From: a virus
Length of the DNA: 20,311 nucleotides
Direction: 5' to 3' (one strand)
Virus record (IMG/VR): IMGVR_UViG_3300027839_000083
Coordinates: 1-20,311 of that record
Positions 242-14,588 of the stretch are shown here, piece after piece (the stretch's first letter is position 1; each line of letters opens with the position of its first letter). The translations under genes and the position numbers were made by a program. The notes under the pieces were generated by a model. The model saw only the letters and a program-made list of their open reading frames with translations, ran no database searches and had not been told where the DNA came from.

Positions 242-1417
242 ATGAGTCTAATCAAAAAGTTATCTGCAATATCAGTTGCAGCTTTGATTATGTTGACTAG
301 CCATACTGCTCTAGCAGATCCAGTTCCTAACGATGCTGATGGATTATATGATAGTTCAAGTGTAGTAGACACTAATAATAATACGACATCTACAAGTACG
401 GTTACTTCTACCAATACTAATAATAACACTACAGCTATTACATCAACAAACACCAACACTAACACAAACACGAATACGAATACTAACGCAAACACCAATA
501 CTAACAATAATACTAGTACCAGCACCAGTACAAATACCAATAATAATGTATTGTCTGGTGGAACTACTAACACCAACACCAATACTAACAATAACGTTGT
601 ATCGGGTGGAACGACTAATACTAATACAAATAATAACGTTGTATCTGGTGGTACCACTAACACTAATACTAACAATAATGTTACGTCTGGTGGATTAAAT
701 AACACAAACACCAATACCAATACTAATACAAGTACTATTGATAGTACAAGTACTAATAATAATAACAACGTTAACACAAACACTAGCGCCATAGATCAAA
801 CGGTTAATTCGACTTCTAATAGTGATATAGATCAAACAGTTACTAGTACTAGTGACAATAAAAATGCTAATACAAACACTAATTCCAATACTAATAAGAA
901 TGATAGTACTAATAAGAATACTAATGATAATAATACAAAGGTTGATAGTAAAAGTAGCAACAAGAATGTTAATACTAACAACAGCAATATCACACAAAAG
1001 ATAATTTCGCCACCCCCAACAGCTATTGCGCCAACAGTTAATGCTGGCGGTATAGATACTTGTACGACCAGTATGAGTGGTGCTGTACAAACTCAGATAT
1101 TAGGTATGGCCGGTGGTACTCATATTAGAGATCTCAATTGTGAGAGACTAAAGAATGCTAAAACTCTTTATAATATGGGTATGAAGGTAGCAGCCGTTTC
1201 AATGATGTGTCAAGATGGTCAGGTTTGGAGAGCAATGCTAATGGCCGGAACACCTTGTCCCTTTAATGGTATGATTGGTGAAGAAGCCAAAGCAGCATGG
1301 ATTGCCCATCCTGAGTTAACACCCATCATTATCGAAGAAGAGAATGCAAGGAATGATACAATCAAAAGTGCTGTTATGGGCTTTAGTGGCATTGCTTTAT
1401 TGCTTTTGCTTCTCTAA
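242..1417 (+). CDS. Secreted Asn/Thr-repeat phage protein with C-terminal hydrophobic segment
   Basis: I chose the ATG at 242 because GAGG (233-236) lies 5 nt upstream; the in-frame ATG at 197 has no comparable site. The 391 aa product starts with a clear signal peptide (MSLIKKLSAISVAALIM..., probable cleavage after ALA-DP). About 230 residues of low-complexity Asn/Thr/Ser follow, including four copies of an NNNVxSGGTTNTN-type unit. The conserved C-terminal domain has paired cysteines and motifs such as NCERLKNAKTLYNMGMKVAA and MAGTPCPFNGMIG, which I recall from T4-like marine phages. The end is hydrophobic (SAVMGFSGIALLLLLL) and could be a membrane anchor. Its last 65-74 nt are shared with the start of the next gene. 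It could be a virion appendage or a host-envelope protein; function unknown. Confidence 0.8.
   Translation: MSLIKKLSAISVAALIMLTSHTALADPVPNDADGLYDSSSVVDTNNNTTSTSTVTSTNTNNNTTAITSTNTNTNTNTNTNTNANTNTNNNTSTSTSTNTNNNVLSGGTTNTNTNTNNNVVSGGTTNTNTNNNVVSGGTTNTNTNNNVTSGGLNNTNTNTNTNTSTIDSTSTNNNNNVNTNTSAIDQTVNSTSNSDIDQTVTSTSDNKNANTNTNSNTNKNDSTNKNTNDNNTKVDSKSSNKNVNTNNSNITQKIISPPPTAIAPTVNAGGIDTCTTSMSGAVQTQILGMAGGTHIRDLNCERLKNAKTLYNMGMKVAAVSMMCQDGQVWRAMLMAGTPCPFNGMIGEEAKAAWIAHPELTPIIIEEENARNDTIKSAVMGFSGIALLLLLL
541..700 (+). repeat. Tandem coding repeat, 42-48 bp period, Asn/Thr/SGG units
   Basis: Four units with the core SGG motif occur at about 554, 602, 644 and 686 (intervals 48, 42 and 42 bp). Each codes for NNNV-x-SGGTTNTN or a close variant. 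Flanking sequence continues as shorter AAYACH-type microrepeats (Asn-Thr). Third positions vary, which points to selection on the amino-acid pattern rather than a very recent DNA duplication. Confidence 0.8.
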
Positions 1418-3824
1418 TTCATACGCACAAAACTTAAACACTGGTACAGCTTGCCCGAACCTATATTCTGGTTCAACGCAACAGTATACGGTGCCTTCTG
1501 GCGTAACCTATTCGTCGGGTGTTATCTGTAATGAAACATCAATAGAGGATCTTCTTGGCTCTTCTATCCTTACTATAGATATTCCTAATGACTCTAATGG
1601 CAACCCTATCGGTGCGTATAATGTAGATACTGATACTTTTACTTTCAATAGTAATAGTGCTAATGTTGCACAAACAGCTACTTTTGCTATCAATGCAGCA
1701 CTGCAAGCGGCCGGGATTGGTATACAGTTTAGAGGGTTTAAATACGAATGGGAAATGATTAAACCAACTGCTAGTTCTATCTTTACAATTGGTGTGAAGA
1801 TTTATAGTAATACTAATGAAGGAATAGCGGGCGCCGGTTTAGTATATTCAAGTTCACATAATTATACTGGTACAGCATTTTCTGATTGGACTTCTAGAAA
1901 TAGTGGTGGTGCTGGTACTCCACCATTCAAATTCGTAGTAAAAGATGAATGGACAGTAGAAGCAAAACTGAATAGTGACTCTGATAATAACCAATTAAGA
2001 GGATTAAAGTATACTTGGACATATGAACCGGTTGTTGGTCATGAGAATGATTTTAGTACAACATATGTATACCCTGGTCAAGAAGCGGCCGAGCAATCTG
2101 ATTTTGATTATCAATGCTCAATTAATCCTCAATTTAACCCTGGTTGTCCTGGCTATACTGATCCTAGTATAAACACTGGTGAAACTACTACCGCAGAATT
2201 AAATACGGAAGAAGACCAGATTGCTACTTCGGGTATAACATCCGAGATAAGTAATTCTGCACTACAATCTGGTACTAACATCGATGGTACATTGAATACA
2301 GAAGTTGTTGATCTTGGCGTGATGCCTGAAGATGCTCCTTTGATGGACGGCACTGAAATGGACTTACAAGGAACAGATAGTATTATACTAGATATAGATT
2401 CACTAGAAATCGGAACAATAAATGAGATAACGGATATCACCAGTATGCTGTTAATAACACAAGAAGTAGATATGAATGATTCTATAATAGACCTGACTGT
2501 ACCACCTGGCGAGACTTTGAATCAATTAAATATAGAATGTCCTGATTGTGTTAATTTAGAAATTCTTGATATGCCAATGCCAATGATGGAAGAAATTCCT
2601 ATGTTAGAAGAAATGATTACTGCCTTACCAGATATAAAAGAACTAGGACTTTCCTCTATTATATTGCCGGCAGCAGGTGGTCCATCTATGCTACCAGAGA
2701 TATCTGAACAAGGTGAAGTATCTACATCTCTTACGGGAAAATTATCTACGGTGCCTGATCTTATTGAGTTAGAATTAGAATCTACTGCTCCTCCAGTACT
2801 TAATATAGCAGGACCATCTATTGAGCCAGGACCAGCAGCGGTATCTGTTACTGGAACAATTTCTCCTACTGCGTCTCTTCCACGGGCTTTAACAAGTATA
2901 CAACGTGACGCATTATCAGTAGCTTCTACTACTACATCAGCAGCTATTAATATTACATCTATACAATCTCGGGCAAGTATAACCAGTGGAGATAGTCAGG
3001 TAGCTTACAGTTCATCATCTGATGCATCTGGAACAAGTTCTAATAGTGGTAGTGATGGTGGTTTTAATATAGTTCAGAACAATGATGGTTCATCTAGTAG
3101 TAATGACAATCAAGCCGGAAATCAACAACAAAGTTCACAGAGTAGTGGCCAAGGTAGTAGTTTCACCAACGGAGATAGTAATAGTAATTCTAATAATGAT
3201 CCCTCTTCTAGAAATACCGGTTCTAATAATTTTGGTACATTATCAGATGGTAATATAAATATAAATTCAATAGCATCTGATAGTAGTATAGCATCATTAA
3301 ATCAATCGGGCCCACAAGGGGTATTCAGTACAGAAGATACAGGTGGTGCATCGAATGTTAATGAAGATCAATTAGCTATTGGTAATACTTCTGTTTCATA
3401 TGAAGAGTCTAACGAAATAATGTTTGGTGCCGTAGTTATACCACAATTAGATTTTACTATAAGAGAAATGATAGATAGTATTATTAAACGTATATTTGCC
3501 GACGCGGGTATGATTTCAGATACTAAATTGGATGAAGTATCAGAATCAGAACTTAAACAACAACAGAATATAGAAGATAACTTAGTGAAGGATGCATTGG
3601 GTGGTGTTACAACAGAAGATGCTCAAGCGGCTCTACTTGGTTATAATCCATTATTCAGATCTTATGTTGTACCACAGATATATGATCAAGTAGTATCACT
3701 ATATGAAACCAAAGACATATATCCCGATCAAACAACATATGATAATCCACATGCAAGATTCTTCAACGGAGCCAGCGATGTACTACATCGTCGTATGGTT
3801 AGACAACAATACGGAGATAAGTAA
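1344..3824 (+). CDS. Large secreted structural-type phage protein
   Basis: The product is 826 aa from ATG 1344, or 823 aa from ATG 1353. The GAAGAAGAG stretch at 1334-1342 suits either start. A signal peptide (SKVLLWALVALLYCFCF, cleavage near SYA-QN) leads into a region with two FRGFKYEWE/LRGLKYTWTYEP-like segments about 90 residues apart. A long acidic, Ile/Leu-rich part and a Ser/Asn/Gly-rich linker (about residues 550-650) follow. The C-terminus contains ALLGYNPLFRSYVVPQIY, DNPHARFFNGASDVLHRRMV and similar motifs that I recall at the ends of uncharacterised proteins of marine T4-like phages. The gene sits between the Asn/Thr protein and a membrane coiled-coil protein. A virion surface or envelope role is inferred, not shown. 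Confidence 0.75.
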   Translation: MQGMIQSKVLLWALVALLYCFCFSNSYAQNLNTGTACPNLYSGSTQQYTVPSGVTYSSGVICNETSIEDLLGSSILTIDIPNDSNGNPIGAYNVDTDTFTFNSNSANVAQTATFAINAALQAAGIGIQFRGFKYEWEMIKPTASSIFTIGVKIYSNTNEGIAGAGLVYSSSHNYTGTAFSDWTSRNSGGAGTPPFKFVVKDEWTVEAKLNSDSDNNQLRGLKYTWTYEPVVGHENDFSTTYVYPGQEAAEQSDFDYQCSINPQFNPGCPGYTDPSINTGETTTAELNTEEDQIATSGITSEISNSALQSGTNIDGTLNTEVVDLGVMPEDAPLMDGTEMDLQGTDSIILDIDSLEIGTINEITDITSMLLITQEVDMNDSIIDLTVPPGETLNQLNIECPDCVNLEILDMPMPMMEEIPMLEEMITALPDIKELGLSSIILPAAGGPSMLPEISEQGEVSTSLTGKLSTVPDLIELELESTAPPVLNIAGPSIEPGPAAVSVTGTISPTASLPRALTSIQRDALSVASTTTSAAINITSIQSRASITSGDSQVAYSSSSDASGTSSNSGSDGGFNIVQNNDGSSSSNDNQAGNQQQSSQSSGQGSSFTNGDSNSNSNNDPSSRNTGSNNFGTLSDGNININSIASDSSIASLNQSGPQGVFSTEDTGGASNVNEDQLAIGNTSVSYEESNEIMFGAVVIPQLDFTIREMIDSIIKRIFADAGMISDTKLDEVSESELKQQQNIEDNLVKDALGGVTTEDAQAALLGYNPLFRSYVVPQIYDQVVSLYETKDIYPDQTTYDNPHARFFNGASDVLHRRMVRQQYGDK

Positions 3825-4339
3825 TGACTGATCAAGAATTAAATATTGGTGGTGTAAAAGTAAAAGCTGGGGGAAAAGCAGGAAAGATCTTCCTATATGC
3901 AACTTTAGCCACATCAATCGTAGGAGGGTTATATGGAGGCTTTGAAGTATATAAAGACTACCAAGACATGAAGGCCAAAATTGAAAGTTATGTCGCTCCT
4001 GATCTTTCATCGATGAGAGAGAAAATTGCAGTAATGGAAGAGCAAGTAGTGAGTGCCCAAGGATATACTAGAGACATTAAAATAGATCTTAAAAAAGATA
4101 TACAGAGAATAGAGTTGAGAACTGAATCTACAGAACGTAGGGTTAAAGACACTCAACATGCAACCGATTCTACTTTGCGTGAAGTAGAAATTGTAAACCG
4201 CGAGTCTGAAAAAGATACCCGTGATCGTATGCGCGAAGCCGAAGATCGGATAGAAGCTTCTATGGCGAGATTAGAAAAGAAACTTAAAGAACAATTAGAA
4301 GAAGCACTAACCAATCCATTAAATAATATGAATAAGTAA
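3824..4339 (+). CDS. Membrane-anchored coiled-coil protein
   Basis: The 171 aa start overlaps the previous stop (TAATG), with GGAG 7 nt upstream, so translation is probably coupled. A short polar N-terminus precedes one membrane segment (IFLYATLATSIVGGLYGGF, about residues 22-40). About 125 residues of charged heptad-like sequence rich in Lys, Glu and Arg follow (MREKIAVMEEQV, RESEKDTRDRMREAEDRIEA). That suggests a membrane-tethered parallel coiled coil. No catalytic motif is seen. It is the last rightward gene and stops 5 nt before the convergent glycosyltransferase gene ends. A holin/spanin-like or scaffold role is possible but unsupported. Confidence 0.75.
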   Translation: MTDQELNIGGVKVKAGGKAGKIFLYATLATSIVGGLYGGFEVYKDYQDMKAKIESYVAPDLSSMREKIAVMEEQVVSAQGYTRDIKIDLKKDIQRIELRTESTERRVKDTQHATDSTLREVEIVNRESEKDTRDRMREAEDRIEASMARLEKKLKEQLEEALTNPLNNMNK

Positions 4340-4344
4340 TTAAT

Positions 4345-5349
4345 CTATTGTGATTCCACTGTTGGGAGAATGATTTCTTCTTTTTCATGTTCGATAATAG
4401 ACCGAAGCAATCCTTCCCATTCTTGAATTCGTAAATCCCAACTATAGAAAGTGTTAGTATACAATCGTTGGAATTCTAACTTAGTCTGCATATCATTTTC
4501 CCAAAAACCTTCAATTGCAGCATCTAATACTTGATAAAACATATGAGCATGTTGCATCTTATCTTCATCATAAGGATACATTAAAGCAAAGTTGGAAGTA
4601 GTTTCGGGCAAGGCAGCTAATGAAGGACATACAATAGCACAACCAGCACTCATAGCTTCAATAGCAGCTAGACAAGAAGTTTCTTGCCATGTGCATGGAT
4701 ATGCAAAGATATGTGAATTCTCTAGTGCTTTTCGTACTTCTTTATTTGATACAGATCCGTGGTAAGTAATATTATCATGATCACGGCATCGATCAAAAAT
4801 AGTTTTATATTCTTCGTCTCGTTGTTCCCAGCCATAGATCTTAAAAGAAGAGTATACGTCTAGATGGATTCTATCGCCCCATTTCTCAACCATTTTCTCA
4901 AAAACAGCCACGAGAACATCGAGGCCACGATGGGGAGTGGTATGATAGATGAGGCGTATTGGACCGTCCTTTGGTTTTGTATGATTAGGAATTGGTACAA
5001 TAGCATTCTTTAAAACAATTGACTCACTATATGGAATACTTAGCATCTTATGATAAGTGGCAAACTGCCAGTGGGAAACGAATACAAGTTTCTTGAATTT
5101 ATTTCTATTTAAGGGATTGCGAAGATGTTCTGATTCAGGATCTTCTGCTAGATCATGTAGCCAGAGAACGGGAATCTTGTCGGGATCAAGAGAACGAACC
5201 CTTGAAGGAATGATTTGAAATTTGTCTCGAATATCTTCAGGCAATTGTTCATGCAATGCTTTCTGCATCATTTCTGTGCCGCCCATGGCGTTCACATTCA
5301 TTTCATTCCGTTCGATATCATTTTCATTCATAACAATTTTCAATGACAT
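4345..5349 (-). CDS. GT4-family (GT-B fold) glycosyltransferase
   Basis: I prefer the ATG at 5349: it begins 2 nt after the upstream stop and has AGGGTGG upstream; an in-frame GTG at 5361 would add four residues. The 334 aa protein has an N-terminal GGTE motif, VFVSHWQF, a HRGLD segment at the start of the donor domain, and the family 4 E-x7-E signature (QETSCLAAIEAMSAG, about residues 222-236). GT4 enzymes are retaining transferases that often use GDP-mannose, UDP-sugars or related donors. The substrate is unknown. Together with the Gmd pathway and three other transferases further upstream, it suggests surface-glycan or virion glycosylation. It is the last gene of the leftward block and abuts the convergent structural operon. 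Confidence 0.85.
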   Translation of the reverse strand: MSLKIVMNENDIERNEMNVNAMGGTEMMQKALHEQLPEDIRDKFQIIPSRVRSLDPDKIPVLWLHDLAEDPESEHLRNPLNRNKFKKLVFVSHWQFATYHKMLSIPYSESIVLKNAIVPIPNHTKPKDGPIRLIYHTTPHRGLDVLVAVFEKMVEKWGDRIHLDVYSSFKIYGWEQRDEEYKTIFDRCRDHDNITYHGSVSNKEVRKALENSHIFAYPCTWQETSCLAAIEAMSAGCAIVCPSLAALPETTSNFALMYPYDEDKMQHAHMFYQVLDAAIEGFWENDMQTKLEFQRLYTNTFYSWDLRIQEWEGLLRSIIEHEKEEIILPTVESQ

Positions 5350-5351
5350 AT

Positions 5352-5645
5352 CTATATCCACCCTAACATTAATTTTGTTTCTTCAGGTACTGAGTCCATT
5401 GTAAATGGAGGATCAAATGTTGTTATTACATCTACTGTTTCAGCACCGGCATCTATACAAGCTTTCTCAATCATTACAATAATCTCATCTGCGAACCCGC
5501 ACCATGCACTAGTTAGCGTATGAGTTACTGTAACTTTGGGAAAGTGATCTATATCTATATCGTATATTAAACCAAGGTCATACACATTCACTGCGATTTC
5601 TGGATCATATACTTTTCGTAGCTGCTCAATTATTAAGTTTTTCAC
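5352..5645 (-). CDS. DUF59/MIP18-family (SufT/PaaD-like) Fe-S assembly protein
   Basis: I chose a GTG start at 5645 with AAGGA about 6 nt upstream, giving 97 aa. An upstream in-frame ATG (5720) would add 25 residues that merely translate the previous gene out of frame. The product matches the family throughout: DPEIAVNVYDLGLIYDI at residues 14-30, a TLTSAWCG motif with the conserved cysteine C49, and FDPPFTMDSVPEETKLMLG at the end. Cellular relatives (SufT, PaaD, MIP18) help deliver or mature Fe-S clusters. It overlaps the preceding repeat gene by 20 nt. The client in the phage is unknown. Confidence 0.85.
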   Translation of the reverse strand: MKNLIIEQLRKVYDPEIAVNVYDLGLIYDIDIDHFPKVTVTHTLTSAWCGFADEIIVMIEKACIDAGAETVDVITTFDPPFTMDSVPEETKLMLGWI

Positions 5646-5823
5646 TTGTATCCTTCTTTCGAGGAATATATACTTCATCAATAAAATCTGTAATAGGAGT
5701 AGGACAGATCTCTCGCACAACTTCTGTGTGGCCGTGGTCTACCGTCTCTAGATCTTTAAATACTTCGATCATATTCTTTCGAGGAACATATATTTCATCA
5801 ATAAAATCTGTTTTATCTGACAT
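5626..5823 (-). CDS. Small acidic protein with duplicated FIDE-Y-PRK motif
   Basis: This 65 aa protein is of unknown function. It holds two near-identical peptides, TDFIDEIYVPRK (residues 5-16) and TDFIDEVYIPRK (45-56), joined by a 28-residue linker containing VDHGHTEVVREICPTP. The repeat is 36/38 identical in DNA. It lies between the SH3-like gene and the DUF59 gene and overlaps the latter by 20 nt. The start has an AGG about 9 nt upstream, just after the previous stop. The short paired motif resembles a linear binding peptide more than a folded enzyme; that is inference. Confidence 0.65.
   Translation of the reverse strand: MSDKTDFIDEIYVPRKNMIEVFKDLETVDHGHTEVVREICPTPITDFIDEVYIPRKKDTSEKLNN
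5654..5811. repeat. 38-bp direct repeat pair within a small ORF
   Basis: Copies at 5654-5691 and 5774-5811 are identical at 36 of 38 positions and 120 bp (40 codons) apart, so both are read in the same frame. They encode the duplicated T-D-F-I-D-E-(I/V)-Y-(V/I)-P-R-K peptide. Such high DNA identity indicates a recent duplication or gene conversion. Confidence 0.85.
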
Positions 5824-5829
5824 ATTACT

Positions 5830-6093
5830 TTACCTATAAGTTGTTAAATTTTCCCAAGACTGTAATGAATCCCATCGAAATGATCTCCATCCACTATCTA
5901 ATTCATATACTGGTAAAACTTCTGCACTCTTTTTTAAGTTAGCTCCTTTAGGCATATTTATACTAGGAATTAAAGATTCTTTTAGGGTACACTTCATAGT
6001 GCGTGTTTCCCCATTCACTTTAGTAAACACAATTTCGACTGGGCCGTCTCGTAAGGCAGCGCCGATTAGATCACGATTAAATTCTTCTGACAT
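5830..6093 (-). CDS. SH3 beta-barrel-like (DUF2693-type) phage protein
   Basis: The 87 aa protein starts after a strong ribosome site (AGGAGAGATTT before the ATG). The segment VEIVFTKVNGETRTMKCTLK, a central LIPSINMPKG and the C-terminal LPVYELDSGWRSFRWDSLQS match the pattern of small phage proteins annotated as SH3 beta-barrel fold-containing (DUF2693). Function is unknown in the family. It sits downstream of the glutaredoxin and the 36 aa membrane microprotein. Confidence 0.7.
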   Translation of the reverse strand: MSEEFNRDLIGAALRDGPVEIVFTKVNGETRTMKCTLKESLIPSINMPKGANLKKSAEVLPVYELDSGWRSFRWDSLQSWENLTTYR

Positions 6094-6102
6094 AAATCTC
6101 TC

Positions 6103-6267
6103 CTATTCAAAACTAGTATGATTTTAATTAACTATTACTGAAAGTATGGTCAATAATAGTATTGTACCTAGCACATAGTAGTGGCCACCGTAAACAAAAA
6201 ATCTTGCTTGTAATTCGACAAGAAAATCAAACATTTTCGTCTATCTATCCAAAACTAGTATGGTTTT
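6103..6267. repeat. 23-bp direct repeat flanking the 36 aa ORF
   Basis: Copies at 6103-6125 and 6245-6267 match at 21 of 23 positions and are offset by 142 bp. The right copy is the 3' end of the glutaredoxin gene (HTSFG-stop). The left copy, in the same frame as the 36 aa ORF and just after its stop, reads NHTSFE-stop and looks like a vestigial copy of the same gene end. Confidence 0.8.
6124..6234 (-). CDS. 36 aa single-pass membrane microprotein
   Basis: This small ORF fills the only gap between the glutaredoxin and SH3-like genes. The product starts MFDFLVELQARFFVYGG and continues with one hydrophobic helix (YYVLGTILLLTILSVIV) to its end. The ATG lies 10 nt after the glutaredoxin stop; GGATAG overlapping that stop is a weak ribosome site. 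It is flanked by a 23-bp direct repeat (6103-6125 and 6245-6267). Many T4-like phages carry such tiny membrane proteins, but I cannot name a family. Confidence 0.5.
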   Translation of the reverse strand: MFDFLVELQARFFVYGGHYYVLGTILLLTILSVIVN

Positions 6268-6505
6268 CAACATAATCTGCTAAATCATCATAACCACCAA
6301 TATGTACTCCATCAAAGAAAATCTGTGGTACAGTCTTAACCCCAGGTAATCTTTCTCTCAAATCTTTCTTATATTCACTACGAATTTCGATATTATATTC
6401 TACTAGTTCTTCAAACATACCCGTTTCAATGTAGGTGTTAATTAAAGATTTAGCTTTAGTACAATAACCACAAAAATCTTGAGTGAACATTTCTACTTTT
6501 TTCAT
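6245..6505 (-). CDS. Glutaredoxin
   Basis: The 86 aa product has the length and all landmarks of a dithiol glutaredoxin: active site CGYC (C12, C15), the cis-proline segment KTVPQIFFDG (P60), and GGYDDL for glutathione-side contacts. Glutaredoxins reduce disulfides, including those of ribonucleotide reductase, so it plausibly serves the phage NrdJ further upstream. The ATG is preceded by GGAGAGAA and overlaps the previous gene's stop (ATGA). Pelagic and cyanobacterial T4-like phages often carry one. Confidence 0.93.
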   Translation of the reverse strand: MKKVEMFTQDFCGYCTKAKSLINTYIETGMFEELVEYNIEIRSEYKKDLRERLPGVKTVPQIFFDGVHIGGYDDLADYVENHTSFG

Positions 6506-6768
6506 TTCTCTCCACCGGCAAGACTCATTCGATAAGAGGCTTTTGGATCTCCGTATAGATCATTAGCACGAATTCGAATAAACTTCTTGTTAGTTTCCGC
6601 CGTATTGGGATTAGTGATAGTTACCCATGGATTCTTTAATGATTGCCAGGCTTTCATAATATCAGGCAAACGGTCTAACCGAGTACGATCACCCCTTACT
6701 GATTTCGTAATAGAACGTTTAACATTGGGTCGTTCGCCGTTAGAAACATTACCACTACTCTTTGCCAT
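6502..6768 (-). CDS. Conserved small basic phage protein
   Basis: This 88 aa protein starts 1 nt after the upstream stop with GGAG 7 nt before the ATG. The N-terminus (MAKSSGNVSNGERPNVKRS) and the segment TITNPNTAETNKKFIRIRA resemble a conserved hypothetical protein I recall from T4-like marine phages. It is basic and lacks membrane segments or catalytic motifs. It overlaps the glutaredoxin by 4 nt, suggesting coupled translation. Function unknown. Confidence 0.7.
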   Translation of the reverse strand: MAKSSGNVSNGERPNVKRSITKSVRGDRTRLDRLPDIMKAWQSLKNPWVTITNPNTAETNKKFIRIRANDLYGDPKASYRMSLAGGEK

Positions 6769-6769
6769 T

Positions 6770-6955
6770 TTATACTCCTATATGTTTTTTAATACGTTCT
6801 TGATTCAAGGATCTTAGTTTCTCTTCCCAAATAGCTATATTCTTTCTGTAATATATATCTGCATATACCCACCCAGATTCTAGTAATTTTTCAAACTCAT
6901 CTTGTTTAGCCCAATAGATCGAATGGTCGTTATAGGGATCTATAAGTGGGATCAT
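6770..6955 (-). CDS. Small hypothetical phage protein
   Basis: I set the start at ATG 6955 (61 aa, MIPLIDPYNDHSIYWAKQD...). The in-frame ATG at 7033 would translate 78 nt of the upstream gene out of frame and give an unlikely N-terminus. Even so it overlaps the upstream gene's end by 26 nt. Aromatic and charged residues dominate (GWVYADIYYRKNIAIWEEKL) and the C-terminus is basic. No family recognised. Confidence 0.55.
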   Translation of the reverse strand: MIPLIDPYNDHSIYWAKQDEFEKLLESGWVYADIYYRKNIAIWEEKLRSLNQERIKKHIGV

Positions 6956-7484
6956 CGATCCAGTTTGGTGCTTGGCGTTTTGTCCATTTTGCAAATCCAC
7001 TTTTTTCACCAATATAGTATCTCCGGTAAGCATCTACATAATGTGAACTTTTATATTTATCGGGCATAGTTTGTGGTATTGATGTTAAATTACCTCGACG
7101 TATATTAACTGGTATATAAGATAGTATACTCCTTAACCTATCATCTGTCAAGTGAATTTTATTGTATCGTTCAGTATATTCATTACATAGACCTTCAAAA
7201 TGAGAAAACAACCAAATATAATTACTAGTAGATTCTCGGGCCCAGGCCGCAGATGGATGATTGACGTGAGTAGCTTTATATAACTGAGACTCCATAGCAT
7301 TGGTTAGACGCCATCGCTGAATATTCCTACCGTTAGAAGTCTTATCTGTATACGATTCTCCATCTAATACTCTATGTGCAGTAGATAGCAATTGAGCCGT
7401 TTCTACAATCATTTTAACAACGTGTTTATCACACATCATTTGTGCTGATTCAAATGGGTCAGATGATAACGCAAAAATATTCAT
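6930..7484 (-). CDS. Conserved phage protein with CDKHVVKM motif
   Basis: This 184 aa protein begins at a TAATG overlap with the HAD gene. Its N-terminus, MNIFALSSDPFESAQMMCDK, continues HVVKMIVETAQLLSTAHR; THVNHPSAAWAREST follows at 72-86 and an aromatic C-terminus has AYRRYYIGEKSGFAKW. I recall this family as widespread in bacteriophages with no assigned reaction. Conserved Cys, Asp, His and Lys near the N-terminus and a second His pair suggest an enzyme or metal/nucleic-acid binder. A distant relation to T4 endonuclease V is possible but I cannot demonstrate it. Confidence 0.75.
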   Translation of the reverse strand: MNIFALSSDPFESAQMMCDKHVVKMIVETAQLLSTAHRVLDGESYTDKTSNGRNIQRWRLTNAMESQLYKATHVNHPSAAWARESTSNYIWLFSHFEGLCNEYTERYNKIHLTDDRLRSILSYIPVNIRRGNLTSIPQTMPDKYKSSHYVDAYRRYYIGEKSGFAKWTKRQAPNWIDDPTYRSL

Positions 7485-8074
7485 TACACACCATCCAGCA
7501 AGATATAATTATAGATCTCTTCCCAGTTCTTTAAGATTGGAAAATCTACCTTCTCATTCATATTAAATGCGTGTTCCATCAGTAAAGGCCTCATACCAAC
7601 TGCTAGACCATCATTAGCATTCTGTAATTTATCTTCTACCCAGAAATAATTAGAGTCTTCATAATATTTCTTCAGATAACCATCTTTATTAGCACCAGTA
7701 GGAAGACATTTGATATTACGGAAAACATTCTCGCCAAAAATCTTCGCTAGATTACGTTCACGTAACTTAGCAGCATACTTACTCTTGCTAAGGCTTGTCA
7801 CCACATCAAATACGTACCCATGCTTTTCATGCAGTAACTTAACATAATAAGCAGCGTCACGGAGTGCAGGTAGAAAGCCAATAGCAGCCGATTGATTAAA
7901 TTCTTTTACTAAAGCCCGACCCTTATCAGTCGTAATACCATATCGAGCACCAATATGATACTCACCTTCAGTGCCCGGTAATTTATAGAAACCCTTTTCA
8001 TTAATCCAACAATCAAAGGCGTACTCCCAATTTAGAAGTACGCCATCACAATCAACTACAATTACTTTTTTCAT
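7484..8074 (-). CDS. HAD-superfamily phosphatase (5'-nucleotidase-like)
   Basis: The 196 aa protein has the HAD signature: VVDCDGVLLNW with nucleophile D8 and acid/base D10, a TSLSKS motif II (T93), and YFWVEDKLQNAND as the acidic motif IV near residues 143-155. Cap-type sequence lies between motifs I and II. Similar phage HAD proteins are annotated as 5'(3')-deoxyribonucleotidases or generic phosphatases, which would fit nucleotide recycling; sugar-phosphate hydrolysis is also possible. Its ATG overlaps the stop of the 25 aa microprotein (ATGA), with GAGGAG upstream. It belongs to the transcript from the promoter at 8182-8210. Confidence 0.82.
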   Translation of the reverse strand: MKKVIVVDCDGVLLNWEYAFDCWINEKGFYKLPGTEGEYHIGARYGITTDKGRALVKEFNQSAAIGFLPALRDAAYYVKLLHEKHGYVFDVVTSLSKSKYAAKLRERNLAKIFGENVFRNIKCLPTGANKDGYLKKYYEDSNYFWVEDKLQNANDGLAVGMRPLLMEHAFNMNEKVDFPILKNWEEIYNYILLDGV

Positions 8075-8148
8075 TTCACTCCTCTTACACCAAAACCAGC
8101 AATCAACGCCATACTCATCAAGACACCAAACACATAAAATTCAAACAT
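8071..8148 (-). CDS. 25 aa hydrophobic microprotein leading the HAD operon
   Basis: This ORF lies between the promoter at 8182-8210 and the HAD phosphatase. Product: MFEFYVFGVLMSMALIAGFG followed by VRGVK, i.e. one hydrophobic helix and a basic tail. Its TGA overlaps the ATG of the HAD gene (ATGA), which favours translation, and GAGAG lies about 5 nt before its start. It could be a real membrane microprotein or a leader peptide for translational coupling. Confidence 0.5.
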   Translation of the reverse strand: MFEFYVFGVLMSMALIAGFGVRGVK

Positions 8149-8181
8149 TGCTTCTCTCTTTCATCATCATTCAGTATATAC

Positions 8182-8210
8182 ATTATAGCAAAAGACAGAG
8201 GGTTTGTCAA
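8182..8210 (-). promoter_or_regulatory. Consensus sigma70 promoter for the HAD-glutaredoxin operon
   Basis: Both boxes are perfect: TTGACA (8205-8210), 17-bp spacer, TATAAT (8182-8187) on the minus strand. The upstream element TTGAAATTA and flanks match the modules at 9144-9172 and 9413-9441. Transcription would start near 8175, upstream of the 25 aa ORF. Intergenic 8149-8243 holds nothing else I can see. Confidence 0.88.
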
Positions 8211-8243
8211 GGGCTAATTTCAATAATAACTATTTTTTTAATT

Positions 8244-8645
8244 TCAGCGATAGGGTCTCGGCGCATAATATCCACGTCCAGGCCAGGAATCTATGGGGAC
8301 ATAGTGACATGCAATACGTGGGCGATATCCATTCGGCGTCCAATCGGCTCCGTAAGTCATACATTTTTTAACATAACGTGGACGATATGGGCGCCGGGGC
8401 CCCTCAATACGTGGGCGATCGATAGGGAGATAACGCCGTGGCAGACGCCGTGGTCGGTCGGACCAGCGGCGTTGGTCCCGGTACTGAGGGAGACTATAAT
8501 CTTGAGTGGTACCCAAAATAGTTCCAAGCACTGTACCAATCACCAAAGGTCCTACCCAATCGTTTCGCTGATTACGGGCCTCGGCGGCACTAGCAGATGT
8601 AAGCATCATCCCGCCGACCGCAATTCCAATTAAAAGTTTCTTCAT
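8244..8645 (-). CDS. Exported Arg/Pro/Tyr-rich glycine-zipper protein
   Basis: The 133 aa product starts with a signal peptide (MKKLLIGIAVGGMMLTSASA, cleavage near ASA-AE). A Gly-rich hydrophobic stretch (WVGPLVIGTVLGTILGTT, about 30-47) looks like a glycine-zipper membrane segment. The rest is dense in Arg, Pro and Tyr (DRPRRLPRRYLPIDRPR and similar) with two cysteines. G+C content is far above that of the neighbours (38 of 60 bases in 8401-8460), suggesting transfer from another genome. AAAGGA precedes the ATG. Such basic exported proteins could bind anionic envelope polymers; function unknown. Confidence 0.72.
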   Translation of the reverse strand: MKKLLIGIAVGGMMLTSASAAEARNQRNDWVGPLVIGTVLGTILGTTQDYSLPQYRDQRRWSDRPRRLPRRYLPIDRPRIEGPRRPYRPRYVKKCMTYGADWTPNGYRPRIACHYVPIDSWPGRGYYAPRPYR

Positions 8646-8676
8646 AGTGAGTCCTTTAATTCTTTCTTTATGTTAT

Positions 8677-8862
8677 TTATGCTTTAGGCATCGGCTGCGT
8701 GATATCTCCCAAGACACAAGAGACCCGAGCATATGGATACTCTCGTTGAATGTTAGGGACAACTTCGCGGCATTGTTCGATTGTTGTTATTCCATATAGC
8801 TCTTCGGCATCCAGAGTCATCTCGACTCCGGTGAATAGAATAAGGATTAGAATCTTTGTCAT
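8677..8862 (-). CDS. Small exported protein with two cysteines
   Basis: The 61 aa product has a short hydrophobic N-terminus (MTKILILILFTGVEM) resembling a weak signal sequence. A small domain with two cysteines follows (TTIEQCREVV...YARVSCVLGD) that could form a disulfide after export. The ATG overlaps the upstream stop (ATGA), with GGAAG upstream. The pattern of a leader plus Cys-x(~18)-Cys resembles small periplasmic phage proteins I have seen, but no family name can be given. Confidence 0.6.
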   Translation of the reverse strand: MTKILILILFTGVEMTLDAEELYGITTIEQCREVVPNIQREYPYARVSCVLGDITQPMPKA

Positions 8863-9116
8863 CCCGCTTCCATCCGCCCGGCCGTTTTCGCCGCCATCGG
8901 GCTAACATACCCCTTGGCGTTTAGAATTCCCAAAGGTGTCTCACCCTTGAAGATACGAGCAAAATACTCGTCTGGAGTGATGTTAGCTTTCAAAAACTTA
9001 ATGAAAGCAGCTTTGCCGCCCCGCTTGAAACGGGCGACGAAGAATCTCTCACCACGATAGTGGTAGAAAACATACTCGCCGCAGTCTTCAAATTTGCTAG
9101 GAGTGAACATATTCAT
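8859..9116 (-). CDS. Conserved small phage protein (FVARFKRGGKAAF family)
   Basis: I start this at ATG 9116 (85 aa) because AAAGAG lies just upstream and the consensus promoter at 9144-9172 lies upstream of that. An open frame continues to an ATG at 9185, but those 23 residues are the promoter read as protein. The sequence FFVARFKRGGKAAFIKFLKA and ITPDEYFARIFKGETPLGIL matches a recurring pattern of small hypothetical proteins in tailed phages. It is basic and probably cytoplasmic. It leads a short operon with the 61 aa and 133 aa exported proteins. Confidence 0.65.
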   Translation of the reverse strand: MNMFTPSKFEDCGEYVFYHYRGERFFVARFKRGGKAAFIKFLKANITPDEYFARIFKGETPLGILNAKGYVSPMAAKTAGRMEAG

Positions 9117-9143
9117 GTCTCTTTTCACTGTTTCAGTATAGTT

Positions 9144-9172
9144 ATTATAGCAAAGAACGAAGGGTTTGTCAA
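9144..9172 (-). promoter_or_regulatory. Consensus sigma70 promoter, repeat-module copy 2
   Basis: TTGACA (9167-9172), 17 bp, TATAAT (9144-9149), all perfect. It lies between the 65 aa and 85 aa genes and would start near 9137, about 20 nt before the ATG at 9116. It belongs to a 66-bp module shared with 9397-9462. Confidence 0.88.
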
Positions 9173-9181
9173 GTGTTATTT

Positions 9182-9379
9182 TCAATAATCTTCGTTTCGA
9201 AACAAAAAATCTTCAAACTTCGTCTTCGCGGTCTCATCAACGAATCGCACGGAAACTAGAACTCGATTCAAAGTGAGATTCTTGATCTTACGAATGGTGA
9301 AGTTGAACGTCTTGGTGAACAAGATCACATTGTTGTTGAAAGTAGGGGCATCTAACGTGTAGCTGGCTGGGACTGACAT
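9182..9379 (-). CDS. Small hypothetical protein behind its own promoter
   Basis: Start set at ATG 9379 (65 aa, MSVPASYTLDAPTFNNNVIL...), downstream of the promoter at 9413-9441. The frame is open further up to 9454, but that part is translated promoter. The product has alternating polar/hydrophobic stretches (VILFTKTFNFTIRKIKNLTL, VLVSVRFVDE) suggesting beta structure, and no membrane segment. It sits alone between two promoter modules. Function unknown; possibly a moron-type accessory gene. Confidence 0.55.
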   Translation of the reverse strand: MSVPASYTLDAPTFNNNVILFTKTFNFTIRKIKNLTLNRVLVSVRFVDETAKTKFEDFLFRNEDY

Positions 9380-9412
9380 TGTGCTGATCTCTTTCTCTGT
9401 TTCAGTATAGTT

Positions 9413-9441
9413 ATTATAGCAAAGAATGAAGGAAGAGTCAA
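9413..9441 (-). promoter_or_regulatory. Sigma70 promoter, repeat-module copy 1
   Basis: TTGACT (9436-9441, one mismatch to consensus), 17 bp, TATAAT (9413-9418). It lies just after the KpsS-like gene stop at 9451 and points at the 65 aa gene. The slightly weaker -35 is the main difference from the copies at 8182 and 9144. Confidence 0.82.
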
Positions 9442-9450
9442 CCGTTAATT

Positions 9451-10470
9451 TCAATAATCTTCAACTTTTTTAAACGTCTCAGAGTTTTCTGTATCATAAT
9501 AAGTATGATACCAATGATCTAAAAATCTCTTATATCGATTGATATTAACTAGATCGGCTGTGTTATAAGCACCAGATAAGACATCATAATAATTCTTATT
9601 ATTAGCATTATATGTGACTTGATCGTAATCAGCGCGGCCAAACGTCACCACCTGTTTGCCATGTAGAATGGCTTCTAATCCTACACCACTGTTCACCGTC
9701 ACTACCATCTTAGCGTTCTCAATCAAATCATGAATGCTATAATCATCCACCCAAATATGAGAATGTCGATTAGCAACCTCTTTAATAGAAGCCATAGAAC
9801 CGGGGTTGACAGGATGACCCTTAATGACAACATGTTTACCCGTGCCTGATGCCCATTTCAAAACACACTCCAAAGTTTCCTCTACTGAGATAGAGCTATG
9901 ATATTTGATAGTCTCATCATGTGGGATTTGACAAGGAAAGAAAATATAATCGTACAGACGGCGTTTATGACCATCATTCTGTACATAATTCAATAGGAGA
10001 GGTTTCCTTTCTGGTTGTTCGAACTTAGAAGTGTTACTAAGAATTCTTTTAGCCATAGAATCATAGACATCAGATTTGCCTTGATCAAGTGTAGTAAAAT
10101 TATTTAGAGGATAAGATTTAGCAGTAGCACCCCAACCGTAAGGATCAATAGAAAAAATGGTAGGGATTACCATCTGCATATAATAGCGAATACGATCATC
10201 TAGAAGCCAGTTTTCTCGCATCTTATGTGGAATATAAATCATATCAGCGTCTGGGCTATTCTCTTTAACACGTTCTGGTGTAATCTGCCAAAGAGGTAGT
10301 TCGAAAATTTTAGTTTGATGGCCCTTACCAATATGTGTCACATTCAGCATTTCGATAAAATTCAACCAATGTTTCCTGATAGGTGCAATGGGTCCTCGTT
10401 CTACAGGCACTGGCCCTTCTTTAAACATTACATCCATTCTAGGCATATAGATATCAACTTGCACGATCAC
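9451..10470 (-). CDS. Capsule-biosynthesis (KpsS/LipB-like, PF05159-type) protein
   Basis: The track start is GTG 10470 (339 aa); a GTG two codons later (10464) has better spacing from GAGGAG. Motifs typical of the KpsS/KpsC capsule family are visible in the second half: FFPCQIPHDETI (about 177-188), VVIKGHPVNPG (214-224) and VTVNSGVGLEAILHGKQVVTFG (257-278). Cellular relatives are Kdo transferases that build the capsule lipid linker, but the phage substrate may differ. It overlaps the GT8-like gene by up to 17 nt. A role in modifying host surface glycan or blocking superinfection is inference. Confidence 0.78.
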   Translation of the reverse strand: MIVQVDIYMPRMDVMFKEGPVPVERGPIAPIRKHWLNFIEMLNVTHIGKGHQTKIFELPLWQITPERVKENSPDADMIYIPHKMRENWLLDDRIRYYMQMVIPTIFSIDPYGWGATAKSYPLNNFTTLDQGKSDVYDSMAKRILSNTSKFEQPERKPLLLNYVQNDGHKRRLYDYIFFPCQIPHDETIKYHSSISVEETLECVLKWASGTGKHVVIKGHPVNPGSMASIKEVANRHSHIWVDDYSIHDLIENAKMVVTVNSGVGLEAILHGKQVVTFGRADYDQVTYNANNKNYYDVLSGAYNTADLVNINRYKRFLDHWYHTYYDTENSETFKKVEDY

Positions 10471-11155
10471 GCTCCTCTAGATAATTTGTTTGTGTTTTCC
10501 GCGAACCTTTGCCGGTCCAGATAACACCTTCTTCTGTGAATTCCCAATCAATATACTTCTGCGGCATCTCCTTAAAACGTAAGCCAAGATTATTTGATCG
10601 AAAGTGTTCATGTACTTCCCACAAAGCTACTTGATCAACAAACCAAACTAACCCGTAATGTTCTATCTGTCTCTTTACAAACTCCATGAATATTCTTGCT
10701 TTTTGTGTTAAGTATACTGCACCAGCACCGACGTGAGTACCGGTGTTCTCCCAACCAACAGTACCAGGCAAAGGGTCTCTCAAGTATAGAGAGTAATCCG
10801 CACCAGCAAAATCTTCCCAAACAATAGGCTTACGTAAGAAACAATCAATATCTGTAATTAATATTGCTTCAGCCTTTAGTAACAATTCAGAGGCTTTGAT
10901 AAATCGATTACAAGAATAGAATGTTCTATCTGTTATATTAGATTTAGTATATGTAATCTTATAACTATCATCATCATGTAACATACGAAGTAGATTTAAA
11001 GGTTTGATTGCTTTTCCAGATAACAATAGTAAATCGCTATCTGGGTTAATGATATCTACCCATGGAAATACCCCTTGATTGATAGCACTATTGATAAACT
11101 GAACACCATGCTCAACAAAATACTTTTCATCACAACTAGCAAACAGATATTTCAT
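10454..11155 (-). CDS. GT-A fold glycosyltransferase, GT8-like
   Basis: This 233 aa protein starts at an ATGA overlap with gmd. It has a DxD metal/donor motif in a classic setting, ILITDIDCFLRKP (D102, D104). Further on are GAGAVYLT (143-150), VDQVALW (173-179) and a C-terminal WTGKGSRK that resembles the HxxGxxKPW-type loop of GT8 enzymes. The lack of a membrane segment fits a soluble transferase. The donor is unknown; a GDP-deoxysugar from the adjacent genes is a natural guess. Confidence 0.65.
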   Translation of the reverse strand: MKYLFASCDEKYFVEHGVQFINSAINQGVFPWVDIINPDSDLLLLSGKAIKPLNLLRMLHDDDSYKITYTKSNITDRTFYSCNRFIKASELLLKAEAILITDIDCFLRKPIVWEDFAGADYSLYLRDPLPGTVGWENTGTHVGAGAVYLTQKARIFMEFVKRQIEHYGLVWFVDQVALWEVHEHFRSNNLGLRFKEMPQKYIDWEFTEEGVIWTGKGSRKTQTNYLEERDRAS

Positions 11156-12126
11156 AGAATGTCAGACCAGTACTTGATCATCTCATCAAGCATAGTCTCA
11201 AAAGTATATGTGGGTTCCCAATTCAGAACTTTACGAGTATTGCTTGAATCACCACAAAGATACTTCAGTTCTTCTGGCCGCATATACTTTGGATTTTGAA
11301 CTACGTAATCTTTATAATTCATATCTAAACTAGAAAACACATAGTCACACATCTCTCTAACTGAATATGATTTGCCTGTAGAAACAATCCAATCATCAGC
11401 TACATCGTGATTAACAATTTTATGCATAGCACGGACATAATCATAACTATGTCCCCAATCACGACTACTATCCATATTGCCCATTTCAAGTTTATCCATA
11501 AAGCCTTTAGCAATCATTACAGCATTCTTCACAACCTTGTTAGTTACAAAGTTTGTACCCCTACGAGGCGATTCGTGATTGAATAGGACGCCATTTGAAG
11601 TCTGTAATTTGTATGCGTGACGATAGTGTCGAGTTAAATTGTATCCCAAAACTTTAGCACAACCATACGGGCTAACTGGGTTCATAGGTGTAGTTAGTCG
11701 TTGAAATCCATCATCGTCTACTGTATTACCAAACATTTCACTAGATGATGCTTGATAGAACTTAGCTTCAGGTACTACATTCTTATATACTTCTAGCATA
11801 TTAAGAACACCCAAGGCGTTTGTTTTAAGAGTAAATGATGGGATATCACTACTAATTCGTACTTGACTCATTGCGGCCAGATTATAGATTTCATCTGGTT
11901 TAACTTTATTCATAATCTTATACAAGGAATGCTCATCTAAGAGATCTCCATAATAAGTATTAATTTTATCATTAGTGTCTTTTAGTCTTGCACTTTGATT
12001 TTCTGCTACACTATGGCGTCTAACCACACCATGAACTTCATAGCCCAATTCTAATAGATATTCAGTTAGATAAGAACCATCTTGACCACTGATACCTGTT
12101 ATTAGAGCCACTTTCGCCTTTACCAT
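11152..12126 (-). CDS. gmd: GDP-mannose 4,6-dehydratase
   Basis: The 324 aa protein is an extended short-chain dehydrogenase with the Gmd pattern: ALITGISGQDGSYLTEYLLE (glycines 11, 14, 17), NLAAMSQV, YQASSSEMFG (S128-E130), catalytic Y154/K158 in PYGCAK, and FNHESPRRGTNFVTNK. Gmd converts GDP-D-mannose to GDP-4-keto-6-deoxymannose, the branch point to fucose, perosamine, colitose and rhamnose. GAGG lies 7 nt before the ATG. The start overlaps the end of the DegT gene by 65 nt. No GDP-fucose synthase is nearby; the neighbour is an aminotransferase, so perosamine is favoured over fucose. Confidence 0.93.
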   Translation of the reverse strand: MVKAKVALITGISGQDGSYLTEYLLELGYEVHGVVRRHSVAENQSARLKDTNDKINTYYGDLLDEHSLYKIMNKVKPDEIYNLAAMSQVRISSDIPSFTLKTNALGVLNMLEVYKNVVPEAKFYQASSSEMFGNTVDDDGFQRLTTPMNPVSPYGCAKVLGYNLTRHYRHAYKLQTSNGVLFNHESPRRGTNFVTNKVVKNAVMIAKGFMDKLEMGNMDSSRDWGHSYDYVRAMHKIVNHDVADDWIVSTGKSYSVREMCDYVFSSLDMNYKDYVVQNPKYMRPEELKYLCGDSSNTRKVLNWEPTYTFETMLDEMIKYWSDIL

Positions 12127-12826
12127 TTAGAAACCTCGCTTTCGATACATCAGGATAATTACGCCAATCACCACTATCTTCGTTCTCTTCTGGTATCTGA
12201 TCCATTAAAATAATACCACGGGCTGCATCTTCTGGTGTCATATAATAATGCCACCCCATATATTCGAAGGAATCTTCATCATACTTTCCATCTAAATTCC
12301 TTCCATCATACCTTACCTTCTTAATATACTCGTAATCGCTCTCTGTGTCAAGTAAAATCATACCTCCTTTGCCAATTGGTACTCTTTTTTTCAACTGAAA
12401 CGATACGATATGATAACCACCCTTATACATCCCTTTATTCCAGCGTGTAGCACCATCCCATACGTTATATGGTTTCAACTGATATATTCCAGACCATTCA
12501 CGTTCTTCAAATTGTAGATTAAACCCAGCCTGTAAGATTTGCATAGGAATTGAAACATATGTGTGATTAGGGATAGTAATATCTGCTAGAGATTTATGAT
12601 GTCTGTTTCTTTTTAAGCACTGTAGAGCCAAAAAGATACCATGAGAACAACAGTCAATAGCAACGGCATATCGGCTACCAGCAAACTTTGCCACCTTTTT
12701 TTCAAACATATCAACAACATCTCTAGGGTCTTTCCAATCATATCCTAACTCCCTGACTTGATCCAATTCTGGTCTTTGAAATTCTTTAGGCAATTGACCA
12801 ATAGGCCATGAATTATATTCTGTCAT
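12062..12826 (-). CDS. DegT/DnrJ/EryC1-family sugar aminotransferase, short form (perosamine-synthase-like)
   Basis: The 254 aa product aligns by eye with the large PLP domain of DegT enzymes: YAVAIDCCSHGIFLAL (cofactor phosphate loop), a VWDGATRW segment with the PLP aspartate (D124), and SFQLKKRVPIGKGGM, where K147 occupies the Schiff-base position. A retained lysine argues for transamination rather than ColD-type dehydration, where it is histidine. Typical family members are about 370 aa; the C-terminal small domain is missing here. The last 21 residues are encoded in the overlap with gmd and look non-homologous. GGAAG precedes the ATG. Likely reaction: GDP-4-keto-6-deoxymannose to GDP-perosamine (inference). 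Confidence 0.78.
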   Translation of the reverse strand: MTEYNSWPIGQLPKEFQRPELDQVRELGYDWKDPRDVVDMFEKKVAKFAGSRYAVAIDCCSHGIFLALQCLKRNRHHKSLADITIPNHTYVSIPMQILQAGFNLQFEEREWSGIYQLKPYNVWDGATRWNKGMYKGGYHIVSFQLKKRVPIGKGGMILLDTESDYEYIKKVRYDGRNLDGKYDEDSFEYMGWHYYMTPEDAARGIILMDQIPEENEDSGDWRNYPDVSKARFLNGKGESGSNNRYQWSRWFLSN

Positions 12827-13451
12827 TGATTTCTTCCATTACGAATTCATAACCATGTAAGATAATCTTAGGTCTGAATTCTGGTGTATAAGTAGAACGA
12901 ATAATACTTTTCAAATGTTCTTCAGAACAATCTAATGGTATTACTTGTAGATCGTCGATTTGTTTCATTTTATTAGCTTTCCCAGTCCACATATAATTTT
13001 CATTTTGTTCTAGTTTCATGGTAATATATTCTGCTTCATCTAATCCCATACAGAAATCGGAAAACAACTTTAGTAGATTTTCTTCTGTTTTTTCCCATAA
13101 ACTATCAACATTATCACTACTATCTATGTCAAAATATCTAACGTCTAATATTCGGCCGTTATCTATAATAGGCGTTATTAGATGAGCCGTAACACCAAAT
13201 TCTGTTTTATTATGATGGAGCGCAAGATTTACACTTCCCCGCCCAGGATATTCTGGTGGACCAGTATGAAAATTTATTGCTCCTATTTTAACACTATCAA
13301 TTTCTTCTTTAGATAAAATATTATATGTTCTATAACAAATGATATAATCAGGATAGGTATAATCATTATTTACTAATTCGTGTCCGTAAGTTTTAAGAAT
13401 GTTTCTTGTCTTTTGATTACTAGTATATAGTTTTATTTTCAAGATATGCAT
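12813..13451 (-). CDS. Sugar N-formyltransferase (WbkC/VioF-like)
   Basis: The 212 aa protein carries the formyltransferase catalytic triad in context: AINFHTGPPEYPGRG (N60, H62) and VTAHLITPIIDNG (D97), with N/H/D spacing close to that of ArnA. These enzymes move a formyl group from N10-formyl-THF onto a sugar amine or Met-tRNA. The short C-terminal part (IIRSTYTPEFRPKIILHG) fits sugar formyltransferases rather than the longer Met-tRNA enzyme. It sits directly before the DegT aminotransferase (14-nt overlap), whose product would supply the amine. The ATG at 13451 is only 1 nt from GGAG, so TTG 13442 may be the true start. It overlaps the GT11-like gene by 32 nt. Confidence 0.83.
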   Translation of the reverse strand: MHILKIKLYTSNQKTRNILKTYGHELVNNDYTYPDYIICYRTYNILSKEEIDSVKIGAINFHTGPPEYPGRGSVNLALHHNKTEFGVTAHLITPIIDNGRILDVRYFDIDSSDNVDSLWEKTEENLLKLFSDFCMGLDEAEYITMKLEQNENYMWTGKANKMKQIDDLQVIPLDCSEEHLKSIIRSTYTPEFRPKIILHGYEFVMEEINDRI

Positions 13452-14172
13452 ACTCCAGATTATTAAACTCTTGTATAAAATATTCTACGGTATCCCAATC
13501 AGTACTACTTACCATATTATTGGGATCGTTTTTTAGAATATAAAATTTTGAGTTAGGATTGAAATAAGCGGCCGATAAGGTATATGTCGTAAACGATGAT
13601 ACTACTTTATTTTCTCCAGTAGCAAGGGCCAGCCAATCGTTTACCGACGTTTCATTATCACTCAATTTCCAATTAGTATTTGAACTAACCAATGATTCAC
13701 AGAATGTACTATCATCACCTATAATATAACCACACTGTGATGAATCAAAATTATCCATATATTCTATATATTCTTTTCTAGAAATGAGTTGCCTATCTTT
13801 AGTCCTTGTATGTAATACATATTCTTTATTAAATGGTACAAAGGGATAAGATTTGAATTTCATAAGATCTATAATCGTTTCTCTGTACTTAACCATATTC
13901 ATAGCAGACTTCATATTAAAACAATTAGATTTGTGTGTTCCTATTTTATTCTTGATAATAGGGAAAGGACTGAAATCAAATAGTGCAGATAAGAAATCTA
14001 AATCTACTATATGATTGCCAGGGTTAGTATAAAACCACTTGTCATAATTGCCGAAGTTAAGGGTAATCTCAAGTTTCTCATTTGTTAAACCTTTATTCAA
14101 TGCGTCTGCATAGACATTAACAAATTGCAAAACTTGAGTACCAAGACCACCCCTTATATTATAATGATACAT
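13420..14172 (-). CDS. GT11/fucosyltransferase-like glycosyltransferase
   Basis: This 250 aa protein starts at a TAATG overlap with the cupin gene. It has the order of motifs seen in alpha-1,2-fucosyltransferases and related GDP-sugar transferases: an N-terminal RGGLGTQVLQF (residues 7-17; GGLGNQ-type), YVLHTRTKDR (118-127; compare HxRRGD), IIGDDS (150-155) and NDWLALATGENKVVSSFTTY (178-197; compare the DxxLM...STFSWW region). Several canonical residues differ, so it is a divergent member. The fold's usual donor is GDP-fucose; GDP-perosamine or its formyl derivative is a reasonable donor given the neighbours. Confidence 0.6.
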   Translation of the reverse strand: MYHYNIRGGLGTQVLQFVNVYADALNKGLTNEKLEITLNFGNYDKWFYTNPGNHIVDLDFLSALFDFSPFPIIKNKIGTHKSNCFNMKSAMNMVKYRETIIDLMKFKSYPFVPFNKEYVLHTRTKDRQLISRKEYIEYMDNFDSSQCGYIIGDDSTFCESLVSSNTNWKLSDNETSVNDWLALATGENKVVSSFTTYTLSAAYFNPNSKFYILKNDPNNMVSSTDWDTVEYFIQEFNNLEYAYLENKTIY

Positions 14173-14585: not shown

Positions 14586-14588
14586 CTT

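Follow-up and report, generated by a model that had tools for sequence, protein, structure and literature searches.

Membrane-acting phage proteins encoded in the second frame of another gene are familiar from the levivirus lysis gene and phiX174 E, where one small lysis protein overprints genes for soluble proteins. In two-component spanin systems, the upstream protein, the i-spanin, is anchored by an N-terminal membrane segment; we know of no hydrophobic i-spanin tail within the overlap. Passages of a spanin survey describe overlapped gene pairs, in P2 and Jersey, that resemble the locus analysed here: they encode two phage envelope proteins, the start of the downstream gene lies within the upstream one, often in the +1 frame, and the export signal of the downstream protein is encoded within the overlap (PMC6139136). 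According to the same passages, public annotation often misses the overlapped start (PMC6139136). By the nature of the code, membrane segments keep their hydrophobicity when shifted to the +1 frame, a general property reported by Bartonek et al. 2020 (PMC7084103).

The window, by which we mean the whole 20,311-base stretch of virus record IMGVR_UViG_3300027839_000083, carries three genes, A, B and C, at its left end on the plus strand. In the large marine phage group to which this locus belongs, the encoding of the A anchor and the B signal on one stretch of DNA is real, old and selected. It is very likely that the C-terminal anchor of A (frame 0) and the N-terminal signal peptide of B (+1 frame, with its own start) are both translated from a single overlap of ~60–80 nt. 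The features of the locus are as follows.

242–1417, plus strand: gene A, with an N-terminal signal peptide, an Asn/Thr-rich low-complexity part, a four-Cys domain and a C-terminal hydrophobic helix.
About 1022–1300, plus strand: the four-Cys domain of A, placed by Cys positions and the family alignment.
1353–1417, plus strand: the A/B overlap, with B in the +1 frame (1344–1417 with the upstream ATG).
1370–1414, plus strand: hydrophobic C-terminal segment in the A frame, AVMGFSGIALLLLLL, which closes the modelled helix and is immediately followed by the A stop.
1368–1412, plus strand: hydrophobic core of the signal peptide in the B frame, VLLWALVALLYCFCF, as read from the sequence.
1413–1427, plus strand: end of the signal peptide in the B frame, SNSYA, which encloses the A stop codon and is followed by Gln at a type I-like cleavage site.
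1353–3824, plus strand: gene B, an exported protein with an N-terminal beta-sandwich and a conserved C-terminal stretch, separated by a long disordered part.
3824–4339, plus strand: gene C, a short N-terminal membrane segment followed by a coiled coil.

In the A frame, the protein ends in ...NDTIKSAVMGFSGIALLLLLL, with the stop codon TAA at 1415–1417. The same DNA read in the +1 frame gives M(QGM)IQSKVLLWALVALLYCFCFSNSYA followed by QN, and stays open to 3824, where the B stop and the C start overlap by 1 nt (TAATG). In many close relatives, B starts on Asn-Asp codons of A (AAT GAY), which coincide with ATG 1353 in the window. Hence, on sequence grounds, ATG 1353 is the most likely start of B (65-nt overlap), and ATG 1344 is a possible one (74-nt overlap). 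Hydrophobic tails and signal peptides were called throughout from hydropathy and simple rules. Opposite the Asn/Thr-rich stretch of A, the minus strand (211–792) holds a long Leu/Val-rich hydrophobic ORF that is probably a mere mirror of the A repeats.

A search with the four-Cys domain of A yielded 139 virus loci, 80 of which were kept, plus 11 phage records. An overlapping +1 ORF is present in 76 of the 80, representing 54 distinct overlap sequences, and the remaining four loci (L018, L033, L048 and L061) run off the contig. Additional scans using other members, together with one genome scan (21 loci), brought the A family to 582 loci, all matched by the core profile. Before counting, we removed 15 loci in which A is open, 37 with <360 nt after A and 97 duplicates. 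Of the 433 that were left, both A and B could be classified in 399, and B was not called in 34. We assigned loci to a hydrophobic-tail class if the A tail is hydrophobic and the B overlap is at least 30 nt; the hydropathy values of A tails leave a gap between 1.05 and 1.41. A hydrophobic A tail occurs in 152 of the 399 classified loci, and in all 152 the signal peptide of B overlaps it in the +1 frame. Two of the 34 loci without a called B have such a tail, and both have a signal-like +1 ORF. The other classified loci combine a hydrophilic A tail with a +1 overlap (113), have a +2 overlap (9), or have A and B without overlap (125). The existence of overlapping loci with a hydrophilic tail means that overlap does not force hydrophobicity. 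The original observation, that one stretch encodes two hydrophobic segments in different frames, is borne out, and the check on conservation in relatives that was proposed with it shows both frames open, hydrophobic and conserved.

The cultured phage HTVC115P, which is named in the published literature, has the same arrangement as the window. Four further isolates, CRP-207, CRP-810, ctXG6705 and ct7L0027, have the overlap with a hydrophilic A tail, and HTVC023P, HTVC033P, HTVC202P, Mosig, Baldr and MedDCM are without a long overlap. A B gene starting past the A stop, which had been named beforehand as evidence against the arrangement, does occur in the distant HTVC023P, HTVC202P and Mosig, but A in these phages has no hydrophobic tail. 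As a consequence of the overlap, public records of cultured overlapping relatives either list B minus its signal peptide or leave a gene out. Among the five isolates with a long overlap (phage records L083, L088, L090, L091 and L093), the public start of B leaves out the signal peptide in HTVC115P, CRP-207 and CRP-810, B is missing from the annotation of ct7L0027, and A itself is missing from that of ctXG6705.

How can one stretch of DNA encode two hydrophobic segments? In this arrangement, the second codon base of B is the third base of A, and the first base of B is the second base of A. Hydrophobic residues mostly have T at the second codon position, and a codon that ends in T or C is never a stop. 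The A frame therefore seldom meets a stop on its way through the signal peptide of B, since T at the second position of B is the third base of A; wherever B becomes polar, the A frame can meet one. This register confirms the earlier suggestion that pyrimidine-rich positions are the cause. In non-overlapping relatives, the A-type frame is open for at least 15 codons from the B start in 20 of 29 cases, as against 4 of 29 for the other frame; in the body of B, the same measure gives shares of 0.19 (A-type frame) and 0.38 (other frame). Hence, an upstream gene passes through the signal peptide as a rule in the A-type frame only. We also assessed the window itself by holding the A residues fixed and redrawing synonymous codons 20,000 times. 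The +1 frame was open in 12.6% of redraws, and just 2.0% of these open frames reached the observed hydrophobicity of B. Conservation is stronger evidence for the overlap than this chance test.

The same property of the code could make the A tail a by-product, if A simply runs into the signal peptide of B, the read-through comes out hydrophobic, and selection acts on B alone. Signal peptides of non-overlapping loci read in the A-type frame (n = 28) are stop-free in 75% of cases and hydrophobic (KD at least 1.3) in 25%, so that about a quarter of A-type read-throughs are hydrophobic without selection. Furthermore, with the B residues of the window fixed, 97% of open A-frame redraws are hydrophobic. 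The pattern of substitution points the other way. Across 46 pairs, the last 15 codons hold 83 isolated changes: 55 leave A unchanged and alter B (O/E 2.71), 19 are silent in B and alter A (O/E 0.87), seven alter both (O/E 0.21), and two are silent in both (O/E 1.17); none makes a stop in either frame. The second position of A is as conserved in the overlap as elsewhere in A (divergence 0.045 vs 0.046). The favouring of A-silent changes, the depletion of changes that alter both proteins, the conserved second position and the 113 loci that overlap with a hydrophilic tail make a by-product very unlikely, and the isolated-change counts largely refute it. Apparent stop-making changes in B, seen in a first substitution count, are best taken as artefacts of multiply changed codons, since they vanished once isolated changes alone were counted.

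Selection on the A tail in its own right is also reflected in divergence by codon position. For A positions 1, 2 and 3, divergence is 0.164, 0.066 and 0.220 in the overlap (42 pairs) and 0.087, 0.060 and 0.285 in A upstream of it; non-overlapping signal peptides, by B position, give 0.139, 0.075 and 0.241 (22 pairs). The overlap thus keeps the codon rhythm of A. The expected suppression of synonymous change in A is present, but it is modest, with third-position divergence falling from 0.285 to 0.220, or from 0.203 to 0.167. Mean hydropathy change in A is 0.32, as compared to 2.08 expected; in B it is 2.18, as compared to 1.88 expected, and hydropathy is not conserved site by site in the B signal peptide.

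Codon choice in the A tail indicates that the B frame is constrained too. All seven codon families examined avoid adenine at the third position (for example, CTN, 8% vs 38%; GGN, 1% vs 28%), with odds ratios of 0.03–0.26 and p values from 3e-10 to 0.002. In the hydrophobic core of B, 67 of 68 serines are encoded by TCN, vs 61% in the remainder of B, and isoleucine makes up 0.9%, vs 13.8% in non-overlapping relatives; these two signals carry some circularity, the class being defined via the hydrophobicity of A, and we gave them no weight on their own. Leucine codons in B run contrary to the simple expectation, with TTR at 47% in the core vs 58% elsewhere. For same-strand overlapping genes, two tests are whether both frames are open and conserved, and whether each is constrained beyond the other frame; we found both to be so here. 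The constraint is unequal, since the A tail is tightly held and the residues of B change freely while B stays open and signal-like. The hard evolutionary constraint originally proposed was overstated, the actual constraint being lopsided, with strong conservation of the A tail.

We infer from the sequence that both the A and B products are made. Among the 38 representatives of the hydrophobic-tail class, B starts with ATG in 34, and its N-terminus has a positive n-region in 36 and, by a simple rule, an AxA-like site in all 38. SD-like matches of at least 4 bases are found at 58% of B starts, vs 24% of random positions; by the same rule, L001, whose A is a 100% match to that of the window, has none. 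Structure around the B start falls below that of the coding background in the two classes with overlap (p = 0.0012 for the 38 hydrophobic-tail representatives; p = 0.007), and does not do so in the non-overlapping class (p = 0.58). It had been suggested that translation is coupled and that the two proteins may be brought to the membrane together. If B translation depended on A, through unfolding or termination-reinitiation, the overlap would be kept for that reason, and the B start does lie inside A in every member of the hydrophobic-tail class. We regard such dependence as doubtful: the start region is the less structured one, the overlap is absent from many relatives (125 of 399), and B starts 56–95 nt upstream of the A stop in the representatives, which is far for reinitiation. 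Low structure and SD-like matches fit independent initiation, and coupling gains no support from them. It is extremely improbable that B lacks an independent start and is produced as an A-B fusion by a programmed +1 frameshift. Such a mechanism would account for B being invariably in the +1 frame in this class, but the start codon is kept in the overlap, the n-region, the AxA-like site, the SD-like matches and the low structure all mark a start, and no shared slippery motif was seen by eye in the 54 overlap sequences.

To what extent has the overlap changed during evolution? We built a tree of 95 representatives at 82% core identity, including the 38 of the hydrophobic-tail class. This class requires seven changes on the tree, of which starred branches force at least four; with just 95 usable columns, most forks are weak. 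L327, L297 and L299, which are without overlap, sit amid relatives of HTVC115P, indicating that the overlap state has been lost or gained repeatedly. Comparing tail with overlap, the four independent contrasts on starred branches fall on average 3.6 the same way, 0 the opposite way and 0.4 without difference (sign test, p = 0.125, few independent contrasts being present in the tree). We tentatively propose, as a possibility rather than an expectation, that signal peptides and membrane anchors can generate one another by overprinting, and that the A family then fixed, and lost or regained, the overlap several times. An upstream gene running into a signal peptide would gain a ready-made anchor, and a start arising inside an anchor would gain a ready-made signal. 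The A-type frame would be stop-free and have few charged residues because hydrophobic codons carry T at the second position. The family offers a test ground for whether membrane anchors arise through overprinting of signal peptides, and a natural case for asking how one DNA stretch serves two membrane functions and how frames share selection. Related phages without the overlap, or with it and without the hydrophobic tail, provide a built-in comparison.

What might A, B and C do? A belongs to PHROG 20531, a family annotated as of unknown function. Its N-terminus is signal peptide-like in 37 of the 38 hydrophobic-tail representatives, and four cysteines are conserved in the family alignment. A 131-residue model of A (mean pLDDT 75.2, pTM 0.50) has a helix at 104–130, and a structure search of the PDB with it found nothing similar at E ≤ 0.001. 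The B model is largely disordered (mean pLDDT 51.5), so B was compared by structure over residues about 28–226 only. Its beta-sandwich, at about 55–226, precedes the disordered middle and the conserved C-terminal stretch, and resembles carbohydrate-binding modules and phage tailspike ends at the level of common arrangement only (best Z 8.0–8.3 over 112–149 residues). Relatives carry the annotation “putative carbohydrate binding”. A tblastn search of phage records with B found no relative at E 1e-3, and a scan of viral contigs found just one contig identical over B and one relative. In Pfam at E 0.1, A and B had no match and C had one far below the cut-off. In many representatives, though not in all, the gene after B encodes a C-like membrane coiled-coil protein. 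In L068, L079, L064, L524 and L526, the gene after B encodes a small secreted-looking protein with a common SKC...VYGNPTP motif that is not C-like.

Of 199 neighbouring ORFs, 110 were compared with Pfam and PHROGs; the matches include four to lysozyme, two to cell-wall hydrolase and three to class 3 lipase, along with several tail fibre families. The minus strand of the window carries sugar and surface-polysaccharide genes at 4345–15491 (glycosyltransferase, capsule synthesis protein, GDP-mannose 4,6-dehydratase, DegT-type aminotransferase and formyltransferase), a small phage protein with an iron-sulfur cluster assembly domain (FeS_assembly_P) at 5352–5720, and a B12-type ribonucleotide reductase gene adjoining one for flavin-dependent thymidylate synthase at 16033–18698. 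From anatomy and neighbours, a late envelope role for A, B and C is plausible. A would pass through Sec and then remain anchored by its tail in the inner membrane, its four-Cys domain lying in the periplasm. B would be released into or beyond the periplasm, where its carbohydrate-binding-like domain may act. Anchored A, exported B and the coiled-coil membrane protein C would together form a late envelope module, perhaps for lysis or surface change.

Among known systems, the spanins invite the closest comparison, and A-B(-C) could be a spanin-like lysis system. Lysozyme, peptidase or cell-wall hydrolase genes lie near the locus in several isolates and some metagenomic members, and C combines an N-terminal membrane segment with a coiled coil. 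We nonetheless consider this unlikely. A lipobox is absent from A in all classes, including the 37 hydrophobic-tail representatives with a signal-like N-terminus, and by a simple pattern is present in B in 3 of 38 representatives of the hydrophobic-tail class and 0 of 57 of the other three classes, unlike the lipoprotein partner of a two-component spanin. Nor does A, with a C-terminal membrane segment and no lipobox, match a unimolecular spanin; by simple rules, its N-terminal segment, the counterpart of the N-terminal anchor of two-component spanins, resembles a signal peptide in 37 of 38. Mosig, HTVC202P and Baldr have primase and reductase or terminase genes next to the locus. In overlapped spanin pairs, the downstream product is a lipoprotein, whereas at this locus the exported A has its anchor at the C-terminus and B is mostly without a lipobox.

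A literature search on the A-B-C gene set returned nothing, and one at the level of search results and the spanin-survey passages turned up no overlap of an anchor with a signal peptide. Unlike the levivirus lysis gene and phiX174 E, two exported proteins here share their anchor and signal only. In the parts considered here, Bartonek et al. 2020 provide proteome-wide statistics, whereas in this family both frames are constrained genes and a stop-avoidance rule was tested (PMC7084103). The A/B arrangement is a variant form of overlap between phage genes, and the code itself offers a simple reason for it.
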